Source: Bedellia somnulentella (Eukaryota; Arthropoda; Insecta; Lepidoptera; Bedelliidae). Taken from it: a DNA stretch of 64,000 bases. Position numbers and translations under genes: made by a program. Positions 3,101 to 63,508 of the stretch are shown in pieces. The stretch covers positions 2,232,001 to 2,296,000 of the forward strand of contig OY755174.1 of assembly GCA_963576735.1 (NCBI GenBank), given 5' to 3'. Under the pieces are notes generated by a model. That model made no database searches. It was not told where the DNA came from and worked only from the letters and a program-made list of their open reading frames with translations. Numbering within the stretch: the first letter of the stretch is position 1; each line of letters begins with the position of its first letter.

Positions 3101-6100
3101 TCAATGCAGGGTGGTATGTGACCTGTGCAACTCATTGTTAGAACCCCTGGCATGAGCCATAATGTTTTCTATTCTACTTGTTGTCTCCCGAACCATAGAA
3201 AACTCAGAAAGGTCTCTCAAGTCATGGACAATATGAGCTGATAAACGTTTATAAACAGAACTAGAATCTTTTTTATTTCGTCTCGTTTCTTCATATTTCA
3301 ATTGTTGTTTTAAGAAAATTGATTGTTTCAGCATTTCGTGGATGTTGTTGAAGTTGCCGGCTGCATTATTCATTGATTTCACCGCACTGGAATGAGAAAA
3401 TATATTTAATGAAAGTTAGGTTAAAAAATATTTGGAAATGAAAAACTTTAAAACATGCCTTTCTTTTTAAATCATCTCATGATTCAATGCTTGGTCATAA
3501 GGAAAGTTCAATTATGCTAAAGGTTGAATTAAGAAACATTAATTTCTAATGGTACAATGTTATACAGATATGTTGAAGTAATTAATAGTAAGAAGAAGTA
3601 ATGAAGTAATCGTATTTTTTTGAGACTACATTCAAAGGCAGCCGTTACATCAAGTATGCTTTAAACGATATCTTGTAGTAAAGCCATACCCGTGTTGTGA
3701 AGTCAAACATAATAAAACAATGAATAGAACAAAATTTTAACTTTGCTTATTACAAATATATTTTTGACTAAAGCTTGATTGGGCATCACCTAAGGACCTA
3801 TGTAATATGGCATACATAAGGGATGCCACATGAGGAGTGAGGTATTGGCAGATTCTGTGTACATAATACATACATACATACATATACTCACAGTTATAAA
3901 TCCCTAGATGGGGTAGCCAGAGCTAAGGAATTAGAAATTCCTCAGCCACTTTTAGAAAGTTTAGTGGGGAAAAGATGGTAAAATAAAGGTTGTTGGTGAT
4001 GGGTCTCCAACCTCATCGCCCAAAAATCCCTTATAAGCCCCAATACTGTTAGTCGCCTCTTACGTACACCCACCGGAAGAAATGGGGTAGTGCTATTCTA
4101 AGCCGACACTACACAGCAGTGTAAATAATCTATCAGTTTATTCAGTTTCTTACTTCTCACAAGACTTTACTTACTCTCACATGCCTCATTCTATGGGCTC
4201 TGGAGATAAATTAATTACATATCATAAACCTCCCCCATTGAGTGGTGCTGGTGTTAAATACAGTGATTATAATGAATATCCGAAGTTATCCAGGATAAAT
4301 AATATAATTTGAAATTGAGGGGTCGGAATTTGAATCTTTAAAATAAAATTTGAGATTTCCAAGTTATATATGTAACACTAACAGCTAGAGCATGCAGGTA
4401 GTTATTTCAGGTTTTAATGTCTTCACAAATTATATGTTGCTTTTTATGACAAGCACAACAAAGTGAAAAGCAAGAGCCACATATTGGTAGCTAATAAAGG
4501 CATGATAAAAATATGGTTTAAAGACCAACAATAAGAAGACTGACTTTTGAACATAATTGATGAGAGAATTCTGTAATGTGGAGAGTGAGAGAGTGAAGGA
4601 AAATGACCTCAAGTGGATCTAAATATTAGTAAAGGGCAGATTGCTTCCAGAGTTAGTGTAATTTTTAATGTTACATTTTTTATGAGACTGTGTGGAGAAA
4701 CTTACTAACTATTAACACTGCCAATTCTATCCTAGATAACTAAAACATAGATTAACGCGATAAGAAATTTAACATATAAGTTGACAGCAAAATTGGATGA
4801 CATGAGCACTGAGCAGTGCTAATAGATATTGAAGGAGCCTGCAACAAAACTGCATTTAATTTTCATTCATAAAAACACACAAAGAGATATAACATTGATC
4901 CTACTCTATGTGGCTGGAATGGAAATAAGCTAGGACACACTATGCAAAGCTATGGAATAGAATATGCAGATAACATTATAATCCTAATAAGACGGACCAA
5001 ATGGAAATATAATATGCAATAACAACAACTAAGTGTGAAAGCTGGAAATGAATCCTATTCACAGGGATAACTTAAATAAAATAAAACCTTCAAACTATCC
5101 AATGAAGTAAAATATCTAAGAGTCATCCTAGATAACAAACTCCACTAGAGTAAACACGTAGATAGAACTATAACCAAAGCCACTATAACCTTATGGCAAA
5201 CCAAAAAGATATAGTGGAATTTAAATCTTTTTGTTCATGAAAACCTCATGTGGGGATTATTACCGCCTGTGTCAAAATTTTTCTTCCCTTTATTTATTAG
5301 ATATACTTTATTTATTAGATATTAGAGACTTCACCCCCGCATCACACACTGGCTTTATACTACAATCATAGGAACACTAGTATGTTGGCCTAGGACATTA
5401 CAAAGCACCTGCCATAAAATGCAAGGAGCAGCCAGCAAAGCCATAACAGGAGCCATGAAAACAACACTGCTAGCTACCGTCCAAGCATGTTAAACCAACT
5501 ACTGCTGCATCTATACATCCAACAAGAGGTAGGGATACATCAGCATACATAACAGCCATACAACATAAAATATTCAAAATGCTGTGCAAAGGCTGAAGAA
5601 CAAAGCACATAACAATAATAGGACCAATGATAGAAGGGCTGCTAATTTTACTCATAACTGTAGAGCAGCCCAGTTACATCATTATCTTACATGTCTTATT
5701 TCTTAGACTTGGAATCATCACAGCAATAAAGAAATTAGTATTTTATTTAATTCAGAAATGCAGAAGCTATTAAAAGTTAGTACAAATAAAGAGCTGAATT
5801 TAAAAACACATTTAGTTTTGTAAGGTAGAAGTTATTTTTGAATTTTTAGGCAGAGTAAATAAGTAAACTCTACCTTAATGCATATTCCACATCATAACAG
5901 CGACCCTGTAGTTCTTTTTGCAGTTTTGTAACCTCCACTCTTCTTTCCACCATAGCAGGTAAAGCTTTTCTCACATGCTCTTGGAGTCTATATAGAGCTA
6001 ATGAAGGCTCATTTGCTACAATGTGCATGTTTTCTGATATTCTCTCTGCAGCTGGAATAAATTTATCAGACATTATGCTTCAATGTGCTTGTATATAGGA

Positions 6101-6327: not shown

Positions 6328-6588
6328 ATTTAACAAGTAGCACAATACTGGAATCCTAAGTACACTGTGTTCAATTTACACTTCTAAGTTTAGCTTTAGG
6401 CAAATAAAAAAAGTTCTTCAAATGATTTAAAAATCAATTACCTACTTATAATTGTAATATCTAAAACAGAATCATAAAATTTAATTTGTTAAAATTTGTT
6501 TGTTGTTTTGTTTTAGGTTTGGATGGAATTTTATTTGTAGTAATGGCTCAGAATTATACTAATCAATCAAATCTGCCAATTGCACTAA
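6328..6588. promoter_or_regulatory. BORCS8 upstream region
   Basis: Sequence just upstream of the BORCS8 start codon, presumably holding its 5' UTR and promoter. It ends at the TAA target duplication of the MITE cluster (6586-6588). No TATA box or other defined element is identified. Confidence 0.3.
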
Positions 6589-9079
6589 AGCGGTTATTAC
6601 ATTACGCAATATTCAGACAGTCTTAGTAAGACTGTCTTAAAGTCTAACTAGACAAGCTCGCTATTAGACTGTGCTGAATACCGCATGCTAACTCATTTTC
6701 AAAGCGTACGTAGCCGGTGGCGGTTGTCATAACCGCTTAAGTACGAAGTGTTTGATTGGAATAATCTTTATGAATTTTCTGCCATAAATATGGCATGTCT
6801 CGATACAAATCGGGAACATTATAAAGGACTTCTTTTTCCTTTGAACAAGCCATTGTACACGCCCCGCCACAGCAAAACACATGTCACGCACACCTTCACT
6901 CTGCGGCTGCCGCGCGATGAATGAACAGTCTAGCGTGCTAACTGCTAAGTCTTATTACACTACGCGATATTCAGCAAGCAAGCAAGTAAAGCGGTTATTA
7001 CATTACCCAATATTCAGACAGTCTAACTTAGATTGAGCATGGTGTAATAAGAGTTAGCAAGTTAGCCTGTCTAATTAGAGCGATCGAATGGGTTCGGCCG
7101 TGCTTAAGCGGTTATTACATTACGCAATATTCAGACAGTCTTAGTAAGACTGTCTTAAAGTCTAACTAGACAAGCTCGCTATTAGACTGTGCTGAATACC
7201 GCATGCTAACTCATTTTCAAAGCGTACGTAGTCGGTGGCGGTTGTCATAACCGCTTAAGTACGAAGTGTTTGATTGGAATAATCTTTATGAATTTTCTGC
7301 CATAAATATGGCATGTCTCGAAACAAATCGAGAACATTAAAAAGCACTTCTTTTTCCTTTGAACAAGCCATTGTACACGCCCCGCCACAGCAAAACACAT
7401 GTCACGCACGCCTTCGCTCTGCGGCTGCCGCGCGATAAATGAACAGTCTAGCGTGCTAAATCTTATTACACTACGCGGTATTCAGCAAGCAAGCAAGTAA
7501 GCACGGCCGAACCCATTCGGTCGCTCTAATTAGACAGGCTAACTTGCTAACTCTTATTACACCATGCTCAATCTAAGTTAGACTGTCTGAATATTGCGTA
7601 ATGTAATAACCGCTTTACTTGCTTGCTTGCTGAATATCGCGTAGTGTAATAAGACTTAGCACGCTAGACTGTTCATTCATCGCGCGGCAGCCGCAGAGCG
7701 CAGGCGTGCGCGACATGTGTTTTGCGTGTACAATGGCTTGAAAAAGAAGCGCTTTTTAATGTTCTCGATTTGTATCGATACATGCCATATTTACATAACA
7801 TAAACATAAACGTTCACGCCGTTTATCCCCGAAGGGGTTGGCAGAGGTACCAATACTCCTGAACTCACATGGCAAGCGCCATCTAGTTTCCAGAGAAGGT
7901 ACCCACGTTTTGCTTAGACAGTGTACTCACGTGATAGGGGGCAGGCCTATCGCCGTTTTGTACGAATACACTGTCACATGACTAAGTACAACTCAGCCAT
8001 GTGGGTTTCCTCACGATGTTTTCCCTCACCGTTAGCAACCATGATAAATTAACCACACATATGACTTTAGAAAAGACAAATTGGTGTAGGCCCGTCCCAG
8101 GATTGGAACTCACGCCCTTCTGTTTTTCGGGCGGGTGATCTACCCACTGGACTATCATGTCGCATGCCATATTTATGGCAGAAAAGTCATAAAGATAAGT
8201 AAACGTAAAACTCTTTCACCCATATTTTTCTTTTTTTTTTTGTATTTAAACTAATAGACACGGCAAGAGGTATGGCAATTTTCTGCTGCTTAGAAAAAAA
8301 TCCCATCGCGCGACAACCGCCACCGGCTACGTACGCTTTGAAAATGAGTTAGCATGCGGTATTCAGCACAGTCTAAAGCGGTTATTACATTACGCAATAT
8401 TCAGACAGTCTTAGTAAGACTGTCTTAAAGTCTAACTAGACAAGCTCGCTATTAGACTGTGCTGAATACCGCATGCTAACTCATTTTCAAAGCGTACGTA
8501 GCCGGTGGCGGTTGTCATAACCGCTTAAGTACGAAGTGTTTGATTGGAATAATATTTATGAATTTTCTGCCATAAATATGGCATGTCTCGATACAAATCG
8601 AGAACATTAAAAAGCACTTCTTTTTCCTTTGAACAAGCCATTGTACACGCCCCGCCACAGCAAAACACATGTCACGCACACCTTCACTCTGCGGCTGCCG
8701 CGCGATGAATGAACAGTCTAGCGTGCTAAGTCTTATTACACTACGCGATATTCAGCAAGCAAGCAAGTAAGCACGGCCGAACCCATTCGATCGCTCTAAT
8801 TAGACAGGCTAACTTGCTAACTCTTATTACACCATGCTCAATCTAAGTTAGACTGTCTGAATATTGGGTAATGTAATAACCGCTTAATAGCGAGCTTGTC
8901 TAGTTAGACTTTAAGACAGTCTTACTAAGACTGTCTGAATATTGCGTAATGTAATAACCGCTTAAGCACGGCCGAACCCATTCGATCGCTCTAATTAGAC
9001 AGGCTAACTTGCTAACTCTTATTACACCATGCTCAATCTAAGTTAGACTGTCTGAATATTGGGTAATGTAATAACCGCT
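6589..9079. mobile_element. Cluster of Harbinger-like MITEs inserted into one another
   Basis: The block starts AGCGGTTATTACATTAC, ends with its reverse complement, and is flanked by TAA on both sides (6586-6588 and 9080-9082). Inside, the same terminus recurs at 6589, about 6989, 7108, 8381 and, inverted, near 7613, 8881, 8963 and 9079. The smallest complete unit is 6589-6737, again between TAA duplications. A longer unit of about 250 bp ('cataaatatggcatgtctcg' to 'gcgatattcagcaagcaag') occurs forward after 6741, after 7259 and after 8527, and inverted at 7615-8370, where a SINE2 interrupts it. TAA/TTA 3-bp duplications with A+T-rich targets are typical of PIF/Harbinger. No transposase is encoded. 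Confidence 0.75.
7794..8163 (-). repeat. Full-length SINE2 inside the MITE cluster
   Basis: Complete SINE2 in reverse, flanked by a 12-bp duplication ATGCCATATTTA at 7782-7793 and 8164-8175. On the minus strand it starts with a tRNA-like head (about 8163-8080: GTCCAGTGGGTAGA as A box, GAGTTCCAATCC as B box). It continues through the 'gtgtggttaatttatc' body and ends in the 'gtttatgttatg' tail. It splits one inverted MITE unit, so it is younger than that unit. Confidence 0.85.
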
Positions 9080-9334
9080 TAAGCGCCATTGCATTTCAAA
9101 TGGTTGGTTGAGTCTTAGCCTGTGACAGTGAAGTGTGAACACAAAACAAAAATAAAATAAACACATAAAAAGTTTTTGTACTTTTTATCCTGTAACTGTT
9201 TCATTTACTGCATTTACGTATCTATCTAAAAACGAATCTATTTATGATAACTTGAATTATAAAACATGCAAAAGTAGTTAAATTGTTATACCCTTGAACT
9301 TTGGAAGTTTGGTCACCAAAGTTATCGTAAATAT

Positions 9335-30792: not shown

Positions 30793-31062
30793 GCCGTGTA
30801 GTGTCGGCTTTGCCGTGTATTGTCGGCTTAGAATAGCACTACCCCGTTTCTACTGATGGGTGTACGTAAGAGGCGACTAACGGTATTGGGGCTTTTAAGG
30901 GATTTTTGGGCGATGCGGCTGGAGACCCATCACCAACAACCTTTACTTTACCATCCTTTCCCCACTCAATTTTCCAAAAGTGGCTGAGGAATTTCTAATT
31001 CCTTAGCTCTGGCTACCCCTTCTAGGGATTTATAGCCGTGAGTATATGAATGAATGAATGTA
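30793..31062 (+). repeat. SINE1 copy with duplicated 5' end
   Basis: Forward SINE1. The first about 18 bases are present twice ('gccgtgtagtgtcggctt' at 30793 and 'gccgtgtattgtcggctt' at 30812). It ends in an ATGA-type tail (31046-31062). Confidence 0.85.
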
Positions 31063-31186
31063 TATTTTTATCAAACATATGTTCGAAACAGTAAGATAAA
31101 AGAAATTAAGGCATTTAAGGAGTTGGGAATCCTATAAAGAAAGATTTCATTTTACGTGGATCTTGCGGATAGATTTCTGTATTTAC

Positions 31187-40428: not shown

Positions 40429-40672
40429 CATACACACATATACTCACAGCTATAAATCCCTAGTAGGTGTAGCCAGATCTAAGGAATTAGAAAATTACTC
40501 AGCCACTTTTGGAAAGTTGAGTGGGGAAAAGACGTTAAAAAAGGTTGTTAGTGATGGGTCTCCAACCGCATCGCCCTAAAATCCCTTAAAGCCCCAATAC
40601 CGTTAGTCGTCTTTTACGTTCACCCACCGGAAGAAACGGGGTAGTGTTATTCTAAGCCAACACTACACAGCA
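40429..40672 (-). repeat. SINE1 copy
   Basis: Reverse SINE1 with all blocks; the tail is short (CACACATA). Confidence 0.85.
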
Positions 40673-41339
40673 GAGCCATTTCTGTATTTCTTGAACCATT
40701 TTTACTTTTAGTACATGGAAACTTTTGAGAGTAAAATGTTAACATCTGCTACAATGCCTGTCAACAATTTCTATGCCATTAATTATTAATCAGAATAAGG
40801 TTTAGCAAAACTTGTAATATCGTATGCGTATGTAATGAAAACCGTAATTCTTATCCTAAAGCCTAAATAAATGCCTCAATTAAAATTTCATAAACATAAT
40901 TATGTATTCTCTGTGTCCTTATATTTTAATTGAAACGCACAATCAATGTGTACACGGCTTAATGAAAACCACACACAGCGTTGGTCCGCTGTGAATATCG
41001 CAACAAACAATATAAAATGATTTCGATGGCCACTTTCAGATATTTGGAAATGACTGTATTTTGGTTTCATTAAACTTTCATCATTTTTCAACCATATAAT
41101 GTGTTTGCTGTTATGAAAACCGCAGCCATTTATTTATTCTGACTTTGACTGGATGTATTTATAGATTTTAAAACGTTTCAACGTTTAGTGAGCATGTCAC
41201 GTCGGCTGATGTGTTTTGCTTTTCATCGCTATCGATCCTTTATTACCAACTCTTTCTCTCAACTACCAATGGTAGGTAATTGTTTTTTATACTGAAGCTT
41301 TGAATTAATAAGGGTAATGAATAGTTATAATTTAATATT
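40673..41339. other. Unassigned sequence
   Basis: A+T-rich; no exon or repeat recognised. Confidence 0.35.
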
Positions 41340-44424: not shown

Positions 44425-45260
44425 GAATAATAGATAGATAGATAGATAACTCGTTTATTTATGTTAACATAACACCACATACAATATGAAAATCAATACA
44501 TAAAGTGAAAAAAAATAATATATTTTAAACTTAAAATTAGTGCTATGGTAACACAAACTAGGTCCTAACTCAGTGCTTGATATTGCCATGTGGCAAAACA
44601 CTGGTTTTCAGTTAAGGCCTACACTACACTACACATAATTAATTAATATATAAACAAAATAATCTGTGTCTGCCACATTTGAAGTAAACAAAATTGAATA
44701 AATAGTAAAGGAACAGACAGTAAACTAAACAAATGCACAACAAAAAAAATTAATAAAAAACAATATCTTTTAAAATACATATTCGCTTAGTCTCAGAACA
44801 TTAAATAATTAAAAGAACAAGAAAACATTATCAGTATTCACAAATTCTCAAGTAAAGGTTCACATGAGAAAACCAAGCAATACATTTAAACATTAGTTAT
44901 TTTTATTATTTACTGGAAGTTTACTTGCACGTGTGAGAAAGTCTTTGAGATATTAATTTTTTGTTGATTCAGAAGGAGCGTTTTGTACTGTTTTTTGAAA
45001 TAAAATTTATTTAATGTTTCACGCATTGGTGGAGAAATATTATTCCAACACTTAGTTGCATTGTAACGAAAACTTCCAGTAAAAGCTACAGTACGATGAT
45101 GGATCAGTGATAAAGGTGGGAGCAGGCTACGAACACAATAGAAACTTCCAAATGAAGAATACTTCAATTTGTTAAAAAGATATTCTGGGCATTTGAACTT
45201 CATTACATCAAACATTAATGAAGCCATATGTAAGCGCCTACGGGATTCCATGTTAAGTGT
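44425..45260 (-). mobile_element. 5'-truncated CR1/Jockey-like LINE with (TATC)n tail
   Basis: It begins at the (TAGA)n run 44428-44447 and extends to about 45260. Its first ~540 bp are nearly identical, in opposite orientation, to 62968-63508. It carries the terminal coding part described next. Confidence 0.8.
44910..45251 (-). pseudogene. C-terminal end of a LINE reverse transcriptase
   Basis: The 113-codon frame carries MESRRRLHMASLMFDV, a FRYNATKCWNNISPPM segment and FYFKKQYKTLLLNQ. This resembles the C-terminus downstream of RT in CR1/Jockey-like ORF2 proteins (pattern RxxAxxLWNxLPxxI...F...). Catalytic domains are absent through 5' truncation; the ATG is internal. Confidence 0.65.
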
Positions 45261-45511: not shown

Positions 45512-45769
45512 TTACATACATACATACATACATATACTCACGGCTGTAAATCCCTAGAAGGGGTAGCCAGACCTAAGGAATTAGAAACTCCTCAGCCACT
45601 TTTGGAAAGTTGAGTGGGGTAAAGATGGTAAAATAAAGGTTGTTGGTGATGGGTCTCCAACCGCATCGCCCAAAAATCCCTTAAAAACCCCAAATACCGT
45701 TAGTCGCCTCTTACGTACACCCACCGGCAGAAATGGGGTAGTGCTATTCTAAGCCGACAATACACAGCA
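45512..45769 (-). repeat. Full-length SINE1 with target duplication
   Basis: Reverse SINE1 with tail (CATA)n. Flanked by a direct repeat TATTAAATTTAC (left copy at about 45504, overlapping the start of the tail; right copy at about 45772), confirming retroposition. Confidence 0.9.
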
Positions 45770-45781
45770 AGTATTAAATTT

Positions 45782-47316: not shown

Positions 47317-50298
47317 TTACAATTTTGGTGTTAGCCCGGAAACATCCTGCACAGAGCCCTGATGACACCAAGCCACTTCATCATTAATGTAATCATTGAC
47401 ATTGTAATAGGCTTTCGAACTAAGATTTCTTTTAACTGCTGCTTTGAATTTTGTTTCTGTTAAATTTAAAATGTCCTCAGGTATTTTATTATACATTTTT
47501 ACGCATAACCCCATGAAAGATGTATTTACTTTTGACAATCTGTATTTTGGTACTGATATTTTATTGTTGTCTCTCAGGTTTCGAATATGTCTGTCACAAT
47601 TTTTCACAAAAGAGGCCTGATTCTTTCTTACATACATAATATTTTCATAAATATATTGACATGGCAGTGTCATTATATTTATTGTTTTAAACAATTCCCT
47701 CAGGGAATCTCGGGATCTCAAATTGTATATAGCTCTTATTGCTCTCTTTTGGAGAATAAATATGGAACCAACATCAGCTGCTCTGCCCCAGAGTAAAATA
47801 CCGTAAGACATTACACTATGAAAATAGCTGTAATAAACTAATCGAGCTGTCTGTACATCTGTCAAATGTCTTATTTTCCTAACGGCATATGCAGCACTAC
47901 TTAGCCTGCCAGCTAGTGAGCTAATGTGGGGTCCCCATTGGAGCTTGGAGTCCAGAGTTATCCCTAAGAAAACTGTGTCATCCGAAAATACTAACTTTTC
48001 ATTATTTAAAATTATTTCGTTATCAACGCACCTAACATTAGGTAATACAAATTTAATGCATTTGGTTTTTTTACCATTCAGTACAAGATTATTGGAAGCA
48101 AACCATGTTTGAATCTGTGAAACCGTGTTATTCACCTCGTCAATATTCTGATTATTTCTTTCAACGTCAAATACTAAAGAAGTATCATCAGCAAATAACA
48201 CTATCTCGGACATTTTCTCGACCATGAACGGCAAATCATTAATATAAACTAAAAATAAAAATGGGCCCAAAATAGAACCCTGCGGAACACCCATTTTTAC
48301 ATGAGTTCCAGGTGATATTGCATTATTGATTTGCACTTTCTGTATCCGATCCGAAAAGTAAGACTTTATTAATTTAAGTGCGTCACCTTGTATGCCATAA
48401 TGTTCTAATTTAATAAAAAGGATTTCATGATCTGCACAATCAAATGCCTTCGTAAGATCGCAAAACAAACCAATAGCATCATTTTTGCGTTCCCACGAAT
48501 CAAAAATGTGTTTCATTAAGGCAACGCCTGCATCGGTGGTAGAGCGGCCCTTCGTAAAGCCAAATTGTTTTGGATGAAACAATTTGTTTGAAGCGAAATG
48601 CAAAAGCATTTGATTGAACATTAGTTTTTCGAAAATTTTACTTAAAACTGGCAGAATTGATATGGGTCTATAACCATCAGGACTAATTTTATCTCCTCCG
48701 GATTTAAGAAGAGGTACAATTTTACTATGTTTCATGAGATTTGGAAAGATTTTATTTCTTATACATTCATTAAATATGTCTGCTAAATATGGAGACAAAG
48801 TTACAATAAAATTATGGCAAACTTTCACTGACATACCCCAAATGTCTTCAGAACTTTTTAGTTTAAATGATTTAAAACATTTTTCGATATCTGTAGGGCT
48901 GACATCTTTAAAACAAAACAAAGTTTCGCACCTATCAACATTTTGTTGTAACAAGTGTTGAGCTTTTATGACCGATGTGTTTAAATATTCAGTTGTTTTT
49001 GATGGTATGTCAGTAAAATATTTTTCAAAAATACAAGCGATTTCCTCATTAGAGGTAGTCAGACCTTTATCAGATCGAACACAGAACTCCTGATCACATG
49101 GTTTACCTCGGCCTGTTTGGGTGTTGATAATATTCCACACTGTTTTAACTTTATTATCGGATGTTCGGATACGTCGGCTTAGGTATCTGGCTTTAGCCTC
49201 TTTACATACTTTATTAAATATTTTTGAGTATTTTTTTACATATTCACTCAATTCATTATTATTACTATAAGCTTTTTGATCATATAAATCGAAGAGTTTT
49301 TCTCTTGATCTATAAATACTTGGTGTTGCCCACTCACAAAACTTAAATTTACTGGTAATAGTTAAATTTTTTACATTGAAAATTTCATTAAACTCATTTA
49401 TCAGAACATTATAAAAGATATCATAGCTAGTATCTGAGTTTTTATTAATTGTAAATGTAGGCAACTTAGAGCTTATTATATTTATATATTTTTCTACTTT
49501 ACTAGCAGTAATATGCCTTTTTTTAATAACAATTTTTGGTTCTGGTATCTCTAGAGGAAAGCTAACAAAAAGGCCGCTGTGATCAGACTTTAGTTTATTT
49601 ATAACACTTTTACTTGAAAAATCTGCATTAGTAAATACATTATCTAAGCATGTTTTGATTCTAGTCGGTTCCAAGAATAAATTTTCTAAATTGAACGATT
49701 GGAATAAACTCATCAACCGTGTTTTAAGATAACTGTCTTGTAGGAGATCCACATTGAAGTCTCCACATATTATTATACGTTTTTTATTCCTGAAAACTTT
49801 GCTTAATACATCTTCCATTACATTTTCGAATTTATCATAATTTTGGTTATAAGGGGGTCGATACACACATACTAAGAAATAGTTTTTTAACTCTATGCAG
49901 GATAATTCCACGACTTGCTCAACGCTTAACTTTACAATATCATTACGAATTTTTGATTTAATATTATTTTTTAAAAATATAGCGGAGCCACCACAGGCTT
50001 TAGAATTGCGGCAGTAGTTGCTAGCTAAATAATAGTTTTCAAAACCAAATATGAGTTCGCAATTCTTAAGCCAGTGTTCAGTAACACATAAACAATCTAT
50101 TTCATATTTTTCCAAAAACAGTTCTATTTCTAATTCTTTACAAGAAAACCCCTGAGTATTTTGACATACAAGTTTAAACTGGGAGACTCCTTGTAAAGTA
50201 TTCTTTTTATTAATATTGCCAGAAGAACCTCCTTCCTTGTTTACAATATTGATGTTAGGTGACGACTTAAGGACGACAGGAGGCTCTTCCGTTGTCAC
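47317..50298 (-). CDS. LINE ORF2: APE endonuclease plus reverse transcriptase
   Basis: 993 codons, open, ending at TAA/TAG in the 3' region. Residues ~42-250 form the apurinic-type endonuclease (QNTQGF ~47, TEHWL ~74, GDFNVD ~182, SDHSGL ~240). Residues ~500-800 form the reverse transcriptase (YRPISILP, GVPQGSILGP and the catalytic FADD at ~700). The C-terminal part shows the ARLVYYSYFHSVMSYG segment typical of Jockey/CR1-type LINEs. The listed start is a GTG; the first in-frame ATG is at about residue 165, inside the endonuclease. The frame is -1 relative to ORF1 and opens just after a TAA at about 50314-50316. Expression by ribosomal frameshifting from ORF1 is therefore the best explanation. 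Confidence 0.9.
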   Translation of the reverse strand: MTTEEPPVVLKSSPNINIVNKEGGSSGNINKKNTLQGVSQFKLVCQNTQGFSCKELEIELFLEKYEIDCLCVTEHWLKNCELIFGFENYYLASNYCRNSKACGGSAIFLKNNIKSKIRNDIVKLSVEQVVELSCIELKNYFLVCVYRPPYNQNYDKFENVMEDVLSKVFRNKKRIIICGDFNVDLLQDSYLKTRLMSLFQSFNLENLFLEPTRIKTCLDNVFTNADFSSKSVINKLKSDHSGLFVSFPLEIPEPKIVIKKRHITASKVEKYINIISSKLPTFTINKNSDTSYDIFYNVLINEFNEIFNVKNLTITSKFKFCEWATPSIYRSREKLFDLYDQKAYSNNNELSEYVKKYSKIFNKVCKEAKARYLSRRIRTSDNKVKTVWNIINTQTGRGKPCDQEFCVRSDKGLTTSNEEIACIFEKYFTDIPSKTTEYLNTSVIKAQHLLQQNVDRCETLFCFKDVSPTDIEKCFKSFKLKSSEDIWGMSVKVCHNFIVTLSPYLADIFNECIRNKIFPNLMKHSKIVPLLKSGGDKISPDGYRPISILPVLSKIFEKLMFNQMLLHFASNKLFHPKQFGFTKGRSTTDAGVALMKHIFDSWERKNDAIGLFCDLTKAFDCADHEILFIKLEHYGIQGDALKLIKSYFSDRIQKVQINNAISPGTHVKMGVPQGSILGPFLFLVYINDLPFMVEKMSEIVLFADDTSLVFDVERNNQNIDEVNNTVSQIQTWFASNNLVLNGKKTKCIKFVLPNVRCVDNEIILNNEKLVFSDDTVFLGITLDSKLQWGPHISSLAGRLSSAAYAVRKIRHLTDVQTARLVYYSYFHSVMSYGILLWGRAADVGSIFILQKRAIRAIYNLRSRDSLRELFKTINIMTLPCQYIYENIMYVRKNQASFVKNCDRHIRNLRDNNKISVPKYRLSKVNTSFMGLCVKMYNKIPEDILNLTETKFKAAVKRNLSSKAYYNVNDYINDEVAWCHQGSVQDVSGLTPKL

Positions 50299-50313
50299 TC
50301 TTAAAAGTTTAAA
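50221..50313 (-). promoter_or_regulatory. Candidate -1 ribosomal frameshift signal between ORF1 and ORF2
   Basis: On the element strand the ORF1 codons end AAT TTA AAC TTT TAA, containing the heptamer T TTA AAC (50313-50307) in the correct zero-frame phase. A -1 slip there enters ORF2. A downstream stem pairs GTGACAAC (50298-50291) with GTCGTCAC (50266-50259), 7 of 8 bases, after an 8-nt spacer. A second potential pairing joins GGAAGAGCCTCCT (50290-50278) with AGGAGGTTCTTCT (50233-50221), all positions paired if G-U is allowed. The two interleave as in a pseudoknot but may compete sterically. Folding was done by eye only. Confidence 0.65.
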
Positions 50314-51428
50314 TTATGGTTTCCACCATCGCATACTAGAAGTAAGTTTCCCCTTATATTAAATATATGGGGGTCAGATATATTATATGCTAATAATTTA
50401 GCAATGTTCCGCTTTTGATTTAAGGGTATGTATACAGTACCCAGTCGAGAATTTGAATAAGGTAAAAACTTATTCAAATCCAAACAAAACAAATTGTCGC
50501 TTTGACAACATGTCACGTGACATATTAAATTATTCATAATATGAATATTGTCATTCTGCTTCATATTAAGTAAGTATGGAAAGGTACAAAATATAAATTT
50601 ACATTTATATATTTTTTGTATTTCCAAAAGTTTATTTATACTTTTATTTAATAAATACTTATTTAATCCTATACTATTGCCGACCAGTACGACAATCGTT
50701 GTATATTCGTCATAAGTGCCTAATAATATTCGTTCTACTATATAATTAAAGTTTGCACCCGTATAGCAATGGTTAATGACCTGTTGATTAAGATACTTAT
50801 TTAGTATTTCGCCAAAACCTACGGCCATGCCGTCCGAAAATACTAATGTTCTGTTTGCCGGCGGCGGCGTGCTAACAGTTGGTAATGTAATCCCATTACT
50901 TGGTTGGGGTGACTGAGATATAACGCTATTTGAGGAAATATGACTATTCAGAGTAGCCGTCTCTTTGTCTATAAGACTGCCGATATGTTTGTATCTTAAA
51001 TGCAGATCTTCCTGACTAACAATCAGCTCACTCAGTTTATCATTCAAACTATCTATTTGATTTAGTAAATCAATTTTTCTGTAAGACTTGTTTATGAATT
51101 TTATACTATTTTTCATACTTATAAGACTTTTGTTTGTGTTGTATATACGTTTTTTAACTAATTTATATTTTTTACACTGTTTACGACTGAAAGTTTTTGA
51201 ATATTTAAAAGAGGTCATAGAAGATAATGATTCTGCCTCAAGTTCGGCACATAAAGAAACTGCGTGAGAGTCTTCGTGAATATTCTTTATTCTATGGAAT
51301 TCCGCCAATTGAGCGTGTGCCTCTGCCAACTGCTCATTCAGAATATGAATTCGCTCTAAAGCTACTTCATGCTTTGCGCACTGATCCTCATGCTTTAATA
51401 TTAATATCTGCTGGTTTTCTAATTCCAC
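50301..51428 (-). CDS. LINE ORF1 with coiled coil and esterase-like domain
   Basis: 375 codons in frame. Residues ~1-50 are a heptad-rich coiled coil, followed by a basic stretch (~80-110) and a second helical region (~118-165). Residues ~195-360 resemble the SGNH-type esterase domain known in CR1/L2 ORF1 proteins: LVFSDGMAVGFGE (~197) as the GDS-like block and IVVLVGNSIG (~247) as the GxN block. The listed start is GTG, six codons after a TGA, and there is no ATG before residue ~70, so the N-terminus (often a PHD finger in this group) is lost by 5' truncation. ORF1 ends at TAA 50303-50301 directly after the slippery site. Confidence 0.75.
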   Translation of the reverse strand: MELENQQILILKHEDQCAKHEVALERIHILNEQLAEAHAQLAEFHRIKNIHEDSHAVSLCAELEAESLSSMTSFKYSKTFSRKQCKKYKLVKKRIYNTNKSLISMKNSIKFINKSYRKIDLLNQIDSLNDKLSELIVSQEDLHLRYKHIGSLIDKETATLNSHISSNSVISQSPQPSNGITLPTVSTPPPANRTLVFSDGMAVGFGEILNKYLNQQVINHCYTGANFNYIVERILLGTYDEYTTIVVLVGNSIGLNKYLLNKSINKLLEIQKIYKCKFIFCTFPYLLNMKQNDNIHIMNNLICHVTCCQSDNLFCLDLNKFLPYSNSRLGTVYIPLNQKRNIAKLLAYNISDPHIFNIRGNLLLVCDGGNHNLNF

Positions 51429-51460
51429 TTGAGAAATGCTACCTCAGCAATTATATTATT

Positions 51461-53286: not shown

Positions 53287-53544
53287 AATTTGCTGTGTAG
53301 TGTCGGCTTAGAATAGCACTACCCCATTTCTACCGGTGGGTGTACGTAAGAGGCGACTAACGGTTTTGGGGCTTTTGAGGGATTTTTGGGCGATGCGGTT
53401 GGAGACCCATCACCAACAACCTTTATTTCACCATCTTTTCCCCACACAACTTCCAAAAGTGACTGAGGAATTTCTGATTCCTTAGCTCTGGCTACCCCTT
53501 CTAGGGATTTATAGCCGTGAGTATATGTATGTATGTATGTATGT
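53287..53544 (+). repeat. Full-length SINE1 with 10-bp target duplication
   Basis: Forward copy ending (TATG)n. Flanked by ACCATATGAC at 53277-53286 and 53545-53554. It serves as a reference copy for the family: 258 bp, no recognisable tRNA promoter boxes. Confidence 0.92.
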
Positions 53545-53554
53545 ACCATATGAC

Positions 53555-56720: not shown

Positions 56721-56756
56721 TTTTTTTTCATAGGAATCAAATATTTTATATTAGTG

Positions 56757-56998
56757 CTGTGTAGTGTTGACTTAGAATAGTACTACCTCATTTTTCCCAT
56801 GGGTGATCGTAAGAGATGACTAAGGGTATTTGGGCTTCTTAAGGGATTTTTGGGCGATGCGATGGAAGCCCATCACCAACAACCTATATGCTACTATCTT
56901 TTCCCCCTCACCTTCCAAAGTTGGCTGAGGAATTTCTTATTCTGAAGCTCTGGCTACCCCTTTTCGGGATTTACAGGCGTTTTTGTATGTATGTAAAT
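56757..56998 (+). repeat. SINE1 copy, diverged
   Basis: Forward, from 'gctgtgtagtgttgac' to 'tttttgtatgtatgt'. More substitutions than its right-hand neighbour. Confidence 0.8.
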
Positions 56999-57007
56999 AG
57001 TTTGTTT

Positions 57008-57251
57008 GCTGTGCAGTGTCGGCTTAGAATAGCACTACCCCATTTCTTCCGGTGGGTGTACGTAAGAGGCGACTAACGGTATTGGGGGCTTTTAAGGGAT
57101 TTTTGGGCGATGCGGTTGGAGACCCATCACTAACAACCTTTATTTTACCATCTTTTCCCCCCACAAGTTTCCAAAAGTGGCTGAAGAATTTCTAATTCCT
57201 TGGCTCTGGCTACCCCTTCTAGGGATTTATAACCGTGAGTATATGTATGTA
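57008..57251 (+). repeat. SINE1 copy directly following another
   Basis: Forward, from 'gctgtgcagtgtcgg' to 'gtgagtatatgtatgt'. Only ~10 bp separate it from the previous copy, so one probably inserted at the other's tail. Confidence 0.88.
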
Positions 57252-61139: not shown

Positions 61140-61587
61140 AACAAGGTTGTTAACAGCAATAAAAAAGTGCCCATAAATTCACTGACCCAGCAAAATGAAT
61201 GACCCAAACGATATCTGATGTTTAGAATTATTTTTTCTGTGCCACCTTTTTTGGGGATCTATGTGTGAATATGAAATGTAAAAGACAGTACACGACAAGG
61301 TAAGCCTCTAATTTACAGGATTAAAAAAATGATTTTAAGTAGTTACCCACTTATTAACTCTGAGTGTCACAAATAACAAATCCTTGAGTATAAAATAATG
61401 AAACAGCTTGCAGAAAAGTACAATTGGCAGTGTTATCGCTAAAAGCTTCCAGACAACATTTGGGAGGTAAGATCATCAAATTTAGGATACACAGTCATTC
61501 GGGTAGACATACCAGACAAGGGCAAAAATAAATAAATATAATTAGCTTACATTAAAACGAACTTGTTTACTTACAATAATAGCTATT
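61140..61587. other. Unassigned sequence
   Basis: Nothing recognised. Confidence 0.35.
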
Positions 61588-61838
61588 ACATACATACATA
61601 CATATACTCAAGGCTGTAAATCCCTAGAAGGGGTAGCCCGAGCTAAGGAACTAGAAACTCCTCAGCCACTTTCGGAAAGTTGAGTGGGGTAAAGATGGTA
61701 AAATAAAGGTTATTGTTAATGGGTCTCCAACCGCTTCGCCCAAAAACCTCTTAAAAGCCCCAATACCGTTAGTCGCCTCTTACGTACACCCACCAGCAGA
61801 AATGGGGTAGTGCTATTTTAAGCCGACACTACACAGCA
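61588..61838 (-). repeat. SINE1 copy
   Basis: Full-length reverse copy, close to the 45512 copy. Confidence 0.88.
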
Positions 61839-61844
61839 ACTAGT

Positions 61845-62216
61845 TATTAATTAAATGAATATTATATAAATTGTTTTATTAAGACATTTCAATACATAAA
61901 TAAATTAGCCTGTATGATGTAAAGTTATTTCCCTTATAATGGTTATTTTTTATTTGCTGGCAATATTAATATCGATGACAGCGACAGCCCTTACCGGCCA
62001 AGAAAAGATTGTGGATCTGTAACAGCCTACAACGGTTTTAGCATAAAACGTGAAAGAAAATAATTGACTTATTTTCGTGAATTCTGGTATTTAAGTCCTA
62101 ACTTTGGTTATTTTTTGATAAATAATATTTAACAGCACAGAATCTAAATCAAATACATATTCTTTGGCAAACATAAAATTTTAGCCATTTATGTCCCAAT
62201 TGAGACTGTTATAAAT
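61845..62216. other. Unassigned sequence
   Basis: A+T-rich; nothing recognised. Confidence 0.35.
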
Positions 62217-62464
62217 AACATACATACATATACTCACGGCTATAAATCCCTTAACGGGGTAGCCAGAGCTTTGGAATGAGAAATTCCTCAGCCACTTTTG
62301 GAAGTAGATTGGGGAGAAGATGGTTTAAATAAATGTTTTTGGTGGCGGGTCTCCAACCACATCGCCCAAAATCACTGAAAAAGCCCCTATACCCTTAGTC
62401 GCCTCTTACGATCACCCACGGGCAGGAATGAAGTAGTGTTATTCTAAGCCGACACTACCCGGCA
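62217..62464 (-). repeat. SINE1 copy, diverged
   Basis: Reverse copy; its right end 'gccgacactacccggca' shows the alternative 5' end seen also at 62963. Confidence 0.85.
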
Positions 62465-62708
62465 CTAATTACCAGTCTATATATGCTTTATTATAGATTT
62501 TAAACCAAAGTTTTCAATGTTAATATATATTAAATATTACAATTACATTACAATAACAAATACGTGAATTTTTATCAATTTTAATAGGGCTAGTACTGAA
62601 TCCGCCATACTAATGTCACGCTCACACAATTATTGTAGCACACCGTTGTACTTTTTTTTGGTTTCTTCTTTGTATTGTCAATCTATATACGTAAGTTTAG
62701 CATAATAA

Positions 62709-62963
62709 CATACAAACATATACTCACGACTACTTTTCCCTAGAAGGGGTAGCCAGAGCCACAGAGAGCTAAGGGATTATAAATTCCTCAGCCACTTTTG
62801 GAAGTTGAGTCGGGAAAAGATGGTAAGAATAAAGGTTTTTGGTGATGGGTCTCCAACCACATCGCCCAAAAATTCAATAAAAAGCCCCAATACCCTTAGT
62901 CGCCTCTTACGACACCCGTGGGTAGGAAGGGGTAGCGACATTCTAAGCCGGCACTACCGGCCG
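62709..62963 (-). repeat. SINE1 copy, variant subfamily
   Basis: Reverse copy. It shares with 16519 and 42238 the diagnostic 'acgacacccgtgggtaggaa' and 'tctaagccggcactacc' changes, indicating a second SINE1 subfamily. Confidence 0.85.
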
Positions 62964-62967
62964 GAAA

Positions 62968-63508
62968 ATTAATATCTCAAAGACTTTCTCACACGTGCAA
63001 GTAAACTTCCAGTAAAATAATAAAAATAACTAATGTATAAATGTATTGCTTGGTTTTCTTATGTGAACCTTTACTTGAGAATTTGTGAATGCTGATAATG
63101 TTTTCTTGTTCTTTTAATTATTTAATGTTCTGAGACTAAGCGAATATGTTTAAAGATAATTTTAAAAGATATTGTTTTTTATTATATTTTTTTTGTTGTG
63201 CATTTGTTTAGTTTACTGTCTGTTCCTTTACTATTTATTCAATTTTGTTTACTTCAAATGTGGCAGACACAGATTATTTTGTTTATATATTAATTAATTA
63301 TGTGTAGTGTAGTGTAGGCCTTAACTGAAAACCAGTGTTTTGCCACTTGGCAATATCAAGCACTGAGTTAGGACCTAGTTTGTGTTACCATAGCACTAAT
63401 TTTAAGTTTAAAATATTGTTTTTTTTTTTCACTTTATGTATTGTTTTCCATATTGTATGTGGTGTTATGTTAACATAAATAAACGAGTTATCTATCTATC
63501 TATCTACA
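62968..63508 (+). mobile_element. LINE 3' end, inverted copy of 44425
   Basis: About 540 bp nearly identical to the reverse of 44425-44960, ending 'taaacgagttatctatctat' and the (TATC)n run at 63488-63506. It starts directly at the end of a SINE1. Confidence 0.85.

Follow-up and report, generated by a model that had tools for sequence, protein, structure and literature searches.

How the second open reading frame (ORF2) of a long interspersed nuclear element (LINE) is translated is an old question, to which the usual answer is reinitiation. The question is posed in a particular form by a LINE on the minus strand of the DNA analysed here, the 64,000 nucleotides at positions 2,232,001 to 2,296,000 of contig OY755174.1 (assembly GCA_963576735.1) of the lepidopteran Bedellia somnulentella. 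In this stretch, referred to below as the window, ORF2 of the element lies in the -1 frame relative to ORF1, lacks an ATG before its endonuclease and opens at a T TTA AAC heptamer just ahead of the ORF1 stop codon. A sequence-only reading of the window had proposed that ribosomes pass from ORF1 to ORF2 by slipping at this heptamer. Comparison with further copies and with related families suggests that the proposal is probably right and that conserved programmed -1 frameshifting at T_TTA_AAC gives rise to an ORF1-ORF2 fusion protein. The frame assignment stands; the lack of an ATG holds for the window copy and does not hold as a property of the element.

The junction of ORF1 and ORF2

On the minus strand, the 3' end of ORF1 reads AAT TTA AAC TTT TAA. 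ORF1 extends over 50301..51437 and closes with the TAA at 50301..50303. ORF2 (47317..50313) comprises 998 stop-free codons in the -1 frame and combines an apurinic-type endonuclease (PF03372/PF14529) with a reverse transcriptase (PF00078), which identifies the element as a LINE, that is, a non-long-terminal-repeat (non-LTR) element. Upstream of the heptamer the -1 frame is closed by a TAA at 50314..50316. The two frames overlap in ten bases (50313-50304), seven of which are the heptamer itself (50307..50313). In the zero frame it is decoded as Leu-Asn, and in the -1 frame TTT AAA CTT gives Phe-Lys-Leu. The junction thus displays an X XXY YYZ heptamer in the zero-frame phase within a doubly open region, as is characteristic of a -1 frameshift site, and the coordinates, the phase and the shortness of the doubly open stretch are as the sequence-only reading had described them. 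A model based on the codon usage of the element itself gives a chance probability of 0.00095 for an exact T TTA AAC in phase within the last four codons, and of 0.032 for any N NNW WWH heptamer in phase there. A second TTTAAAC occurs 135 nt downstream (50178-50172, minus strand); it is read in the ORF2 phase as TTT AAA CTT and hence does not match the slippery phase.

The heptamer in three families

Copies were searched in the 549-Mb assembly that contains the window, and the copy numbers are lower bounds. At least 46 copies of the window's own family, family A, are 99-100% identical across all 998 ORF2 residues; 45 of the 46 are stop-free and one contains a TAG. The copies are dispersed, some are 5'-truncated (e.g. 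L116), and the five 3' ends inspected carry a short, variable, A/T-rich tail, as expected of a LINE. Family A is a young, recently multiplied LINE. The window copy is itself 5'-truncated: measured against the full-length ORF1 of L006, which has 443 residues, its ORF1 lacks codons 1-65 and retains residues 66-443. Junctions were read in 39 family A copies, namely 30 loci (L001-L030) and nine of the ten copies of a subfamily, A' (L114-L123), the truncated L116 having no junction. The heptamer, the ORF1 TAA and the TAA closing the -1 frame are invariant in all 30 loci L001-L030, and all nine A' junctions contain the heptamer together with an ATG discussed below.

Two further families were found with ORF2 proteins from other sources as queries. 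The query P0064 led to family B; its 46 listed matches have open frames ranging from 969 to 1005 codons, and none contains a stop in the matched ORF2 stretch. Twenty-three distinct junctions were read (L112 and L074 are one copy, counted once; the truncated L051, without junction, was left out), and all 23 retain the heptamer, with the TAA at the same position as in family A. The extracts of L052-L069 ended before the codon at the position of the ATG, and the same copies were read again as L072-L089. Family C was found with the query P0103. Its 48 listed matches are all stop-free in the matched stretch; the open frame has 957 codons in all but one of them, which has 954. In each of the 24 distinct junctions (L092-L111, L126, L127, L128 and L131; L113 and L096 are one copy) ORF1 ends with ..GC TTT AAA C TAG, so that T_TTA_AAC directly abuts the stop codon.

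TTTAAAC is therefore present in all 86 distinct junctions of three families of one genome (39 A, 23 B and 24 C), followed by the stop codon after 3 nt in A and B and 0 nt in C; no copy with the same ORF arrangement and without the heptamer was found among them. Identity around the junction is about 85% for A and B. For A and C it amounts to 54% in ORF2 and to 28% in ORF1, and against flanks so strongly diverged the common heptamer stands out.

Two copies deviate near the junction. In L126, of family C, the heptamer and stop are duplicated by 11 bases (TTTAAACTAGCTTTAAACTAG), the second heptamer being out of step with the first. In L070, of family B, the linker diverges from that of the other copies about 75 bases after the heptamer and contains a stop in the ORF2 frame.

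In the search for additional families, the query P0002 returned A' and A copies, ten of its places being read, and many of the rows obtained with P0118 were family B places already found. Patterns built on the endonuclease (EN) motif matched 417 places, mostly of the C form among the 100 listed, and pointed to 8 further places; of 11 loci retrieved with these patterns, seven (L124, L125, L129, L130 and L132-L134) were chance matches and were discarded. A first search of viral and prokaryotic collections gave no match. Two further searches of these collections yielded 17 and 2 distant loci, the closest of which (L031, 46%) starts inside ORF2; these 19 loci are not included in the 86 junctions.

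Start codons for ORF2

An ATG is situated 8 nt past the ORF1 stop in 38 of the 39 family A copies (29 of the 30 in L001-L030), at the place where the window copy has ACG (50290..50292). The absence of an ATG as a family trait was accordingly rejected; it reflects a private substitution in the single, 5'-truncated copy in the window. Relatives with an ATG for ORF2 close to the ORF1 stop, which the sequence-only reading had named as a finding that would speak against frameshifting, thus occur within the very family on which that reading was based.

The other families differ at this codon. All 23 family B copies that reach it have ATA, and all 24 family C copies have AAG. In family C no ORF2-frame Met precedes the QN motif of the endonuclease in any of the 24 copies. 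In family B the extracts extend to residue 47 or beyond, the QN motif being at residue 53, and those of 21 of the 23 copies contain no such Met. The motif is located at residue 51 in A, 53 in B and 18 in C, and the E of the E-H-W motif at residues 79, 81 and 46, respectively. In copies translated further, the first ORF2-frame Met is residue 8 in A, 168 in B (L112) and 54 in C (L113). With two exceptions in B, these positions leave no ATG able to start a complete endonuclease in B and C. An AUG overlapping the ORF1 stop, of the type known from SART1, is absent from the A, B and C junctions. The heptamer, its phase, the stop codons, their conservation in three families and the lack of a usable ATG in two of these are direct observations.

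RNA structure downstream of the heptamer

The sequence-only reading had described a 7-of-8-bp stem 8 nt after the heptamer, which is present, and a 13-bp long-range pairing, which exists and proved to be 14 bp long. Its 5' arm (CGGAAGAGCCTCCT, 50278..50291, minus strand) starts at the 16th nucleotide after the heptamer and pairs, from 50291 to 50278, with the 3' arm (AGGAGGTTCTTCTG, 50220..50233). The 14-bp duplex is retained in A and B and has a free energy of -21.9 to -23.0 kcal/mol in these families and the window copy. One pair of this stem is not the same in A and B, G-U versus A-U, and no two-sided compensatory change was seen. At the same position, family C contains a bulged stem, GGAAA-AGGC/GCCTTTCC. 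Folding of 93-95 nt gave z-scores of -2.0 (A), -2.4 (B), -1.5 (C) and -1.9 (A'), with 8, 3, 14 and 8 of 200 shuffled sequences, respectively, folding as well.

A possible stem 1 of a pseudoknot is formed by GTGAC (50294..50298, minus strand), which starts at the 9th nucleotide after the heptamer, and GTCAC (50259..50263), which make up the five uninterrupted pairs of the 7-of-8-bp stem. These pairs can form in A; B has four and C none. In a survey of H-type pseudoknots based on mononucleotide shuffles and one crude scoring scheme, the window copy, A, A' and B scored better than every one of 150 shuffles, mostly owing to the long stem, whereas the best H-type structure of C was matched by 139 of 150. 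A conserved pseudoknot as a general feature of the junction was therefore rejected, and the structural part of the sequence-only reading is borne out only by half. Since the structure varies among A, B and C, the heptamer is more widely conserved than any single structure.

Relatives from other sources

Searches for relatives of the ORF2 protein, in which scoring was confined to the 7983 candidates with most words in common, found 1069, of which the best 120 were listed. The organism names on a few of those listed, Parnassius, Plutella, Choristoneura and Euphydryas, are those of moths and butterflies. Inspection by eye revealed that eight of the 120 (P0004, P0027, P0030, P0038, P0042, P0043, P0064 and P0103) begin 1-5 residues before the sequence FKL, which is the -1 reading of TTT AAA CTN, although protein letters do not fix the codons. 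In five of the eight (P0004, P0027, P0030, P0042 and P0103) no Met intervenes between FKL and the QN motif. A filter for at least 14 residues before the motif retained 30 proteins, 7 with and 23 without FKL; it missed P0030, and P0011 proved to be a false motif. The placement of Met varies among the relatives, from FKLxxxTM in A and FKLxxM in P0038 to four proteins that start with MTTE, as expected of incidental codons. At the end of ORF1, the relative P0121 has ..TSSLN and family C ..LALN, whereas the chimeric P0122 lacks such an end.

Comparison with known systems

Coronaviruses proceed from ORF1a to ORF1b by a -1 frameshift at U_UUA_AAC with the aid of a pseudoknot. The LINE resembles them in the identical heptamer and phase (their shift site is described in PMC5009743), in the long downstream pairing of families A and B, and in having the polymerase in the second frame. 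It differs in not being a virus, in having no conserved pseudoknot, in the 15 nt between the heptamer and the main stem, and in the stop codon 0-3 nt after the heptamer. The same paper counts U_UUA_AAC with the heptamers on which mammalian ribosomes shift most readily and discusses, among non-LTR elements, HeT-A (gag frameshifting), TART and LINE.

Among non-LTR elements, TRE5-A and TRE3-A of Dictyostelium are stated to require a -1 frameshift for ORF2 (PMC5911963), so that the sequence-only reading, which held a frameshift of this type to be unusual for such elements, is right in degree. They are amoebal elements that target Pol III genes; the likeness concerns the stated frameshift, and no heptamer was seen for them. 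SART1, a LINE of the silkworm, is closer in host: translation of its ORF2 is coupled to the end of ORF1, with downstream structure, by a stop-start mechanism, and for mammalian L1 termination-reinitiation has been proposed (PMC5972666). SART1 has a UAAUG stop-start, unlike the LINE described here, in which no AUG overlaps the stop and B and C have no ATG at the place. L1 and the yeast element Zorro3 likewise encode an ORF1 protein and an ORF2 with endonuclease and reverse transcriptase, but their ORFs are spaced, reinitiation or internal initiation is proposed, and in Zorro3 the ATG of ORF2 is important (PMC1965478). In the literature covered on frameshifting in non-LTR and LINE elements, to which most subscription journals do not belong, no title or abstract beginning announces an insect LINE with such a site. 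Frameshifting by -1 in non-LTR elements is thus already known in kind, and none of the entries listed there presents a lineage of insect LINEs in which a heptamer of the coronavirus type is fixed.

Frameshifting or reinitiation

The heptamer, its phase and the stop are retained in B and C, where all C copies and most B copies, as far as read, have no ATG before the endonuclease; this makes -1 frameshifting the best common explanation. Ribosomes finishing ORF1 would reach TTA AAC preceded by T. A minority would slip back one base, from TTA AAC to TTT AAA, bypass the ORF1 stop one codon on and enter ORF2. The product would be a fusion of coiled coil, SGNH-like domain, endonuclease and reverse transcriptase, and free ORF1 protein would be present in excess beside it, as in retroviral gag-pol. 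In family A, reinitiation at the ATG, 8 nt beyond the stop, may provide a second way into ORF2. Slippage at some rate, the resulting fusion protein and any stimulation by the RNA stem are inferred from the features of the sequence.

Several observations weigh against frameshifting. Family A, from which the finding came, has an ATG at which reinitiation could take place. In B, 2 of 23 copies are exceptions: L075 contains an ATG in frame at residue 23, and in L070 the frame is closed by a stop within 42 residues. The DNA comes from one genome with only two deep lineages (A/B and C), and copies within a family are nearly identical, so that the 86 junctions do not amount to 86 independent tests. 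The z-scores of the stems are modest, and the pseudoknot is absent in C. Stimulatory structures are usually spaced 5-9 nt from the heptamer, and the 14-bp stem, which starts 15 nt past it, is rather far for a classical stimulator. Among the filtered relatives, those without FKL prevail (23 of 30); many of these start at an internal Met within the linker, and the DNA upstream is consequently not represented in their protein sequences. P0020 and P0098 seem to extend past the site without FKL and may be exceptions. The FKL set is itself biased, since a gene caller needs a start codon upstream of FKL.

Under termination-reinitiation, the 40S subunit would stay on the RNA after the ORF1 stop and restart nearby, at the ATG in A, at the near-cognate codons ATA in B and AAG in C, or at no fixed codon, with the downstream structure holding the ribosome as proposed for SART1. 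The ATG in 38 of 39 A copies fits this mechanism, as do the stop-start coupling with downstream structure reported for SART1, the proposal made for L1 (PMC5972666) and the importance of the ORF2 ATG in Zorro3 (PMC1965478). However, all 24 C copies lack an ATG before the QN motif, as do 21 of the 23 B copies within the stretch read, and it is the heptamer, not the start codon, that the three families have in common. Reinitiation at the A-specific ATG cannot be the mechanism common to all three, and reinitiation in its wider form is unlikely. AAG is among the poorest near-cognate start codons, which counts against it in C. Somewhat less unlikely is a variant compatible with frameshifting in the lineage, in which A has switched to reinitiation at its ATG and retains the heptamer as a relic, while B and C still shift. 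Among the copies read, the ATG is fixed only in A and A', in agreement with such a switch; the heptamer is nevertheless unchanged in all 39 A copies, which are too young for this to carry much weight. The ATG of family A is best regarded as a lineage-specific extra, and reinitiation there may coexist with frameshifting or have taken over.

The heptamer might also be kept only by the peptide ends that it encodes (Leu-Asn in ORF1, Phe-Lys-Leu in ORF2) or by common ancestry, with ORF2 expressed by another route, e.g. splicing or internal entry. The closeness of A and B (85% in the flanks) makes their identity at the site weak evidence and to that extent favors this explanation. Yet the letters of the heptamer are unchanged between A and C, whose flanks have strongly diverged, FKL or LN recurs in relatives from other sources, and with a stop 0 or 3 nt after the heptamer no peptide domain depends on it. 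Preservation for such reasons seems very improbable, and programmed -1 frameshifting is the explanation that we consider likely.

If frameshifting takes place, the frequency of slippage would determine how much reverse transcriptase is made relative to ORF1 protein, and the enzyme would be joined to the ORF1 protein, which bears on cis preference. A fixed, very slippery -1 site in natural families with and without an ATG would make the two routes directly comparable within one genome. A broader proposal can be put forward tentatively, with a chance of being correct somewhat short of even: a LINE lineage spread across Lepidoptera may obligately express its reverse transcriptase as an ORF1-ORF2 fusion by means of a fixed T_TTA_AAC right before the ORF1 stop and without a conserved pseudoknot. 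A gag-pol strategy would then have been kept in LINEs, with AUG reinitiation as a secondary gain in some families.

The ORF1 protein

A structure model of L006 predicts that ORF1 consists of long helices, including a coiled coil, and an SGNH/GDSL-hydrolase fold, as in the Type IV (esterase) ORF1 proteins. The residues of the GDS(L) block vary: SDGM in A, SDSL in C, SDDI in P0121 and SDKL in P0122. At the position that we take to be that of the nucleophile, no catalytic serine is conserved across A, C, P0121 and P0122. The ORF1 proteins of L006, L113, P0121, P0122 and the window apparently represent a pseudo-esterase, predicted from the model, in an insect-like LINE. The esterase-type ORF1 of CR1/L2 LINEs shares the predicted fold and is reported only from vertebrate subgroups (PMC4120745); the present case differs from it in the insect-like genome and in the lack of conservation of the nucleophile serine. 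With the window ORF1 as query no ORF1 relatives were found, whereas a profile of three ORF1 sequences found two, P0121 and P0122. The latter is a Plutella protein in which a LINE ORF1 N-terminus and part of the SGNH domain are fused to a trypsin-like piece (PF00089); it is perhaps an annotation chimera.

Other repeats in the window

On the minus strand at 45317-44910, a frame of 135 residues resembles, by eye, the C-terminal end of another LINE. Two inverted copies of a repeat of about 540 bp, with 96% identity, are located at 44431-44960 and 62965-63506. A cluster of direct and inverted repeats, several pieces of which are 95-100% identical, occupies 6585-9082. An interspersed repeat of about 250 bp that resembles a short interspersed nuclear element (SINE), about 77-95% identical between the pairs seen, occurs at 3866-4118, 30810-31063, 40429-40673, 45513-45770, 53290-53545, 56755-56995, 57005-57251, 61587-61872, 62218-62464 and 62692-62957.

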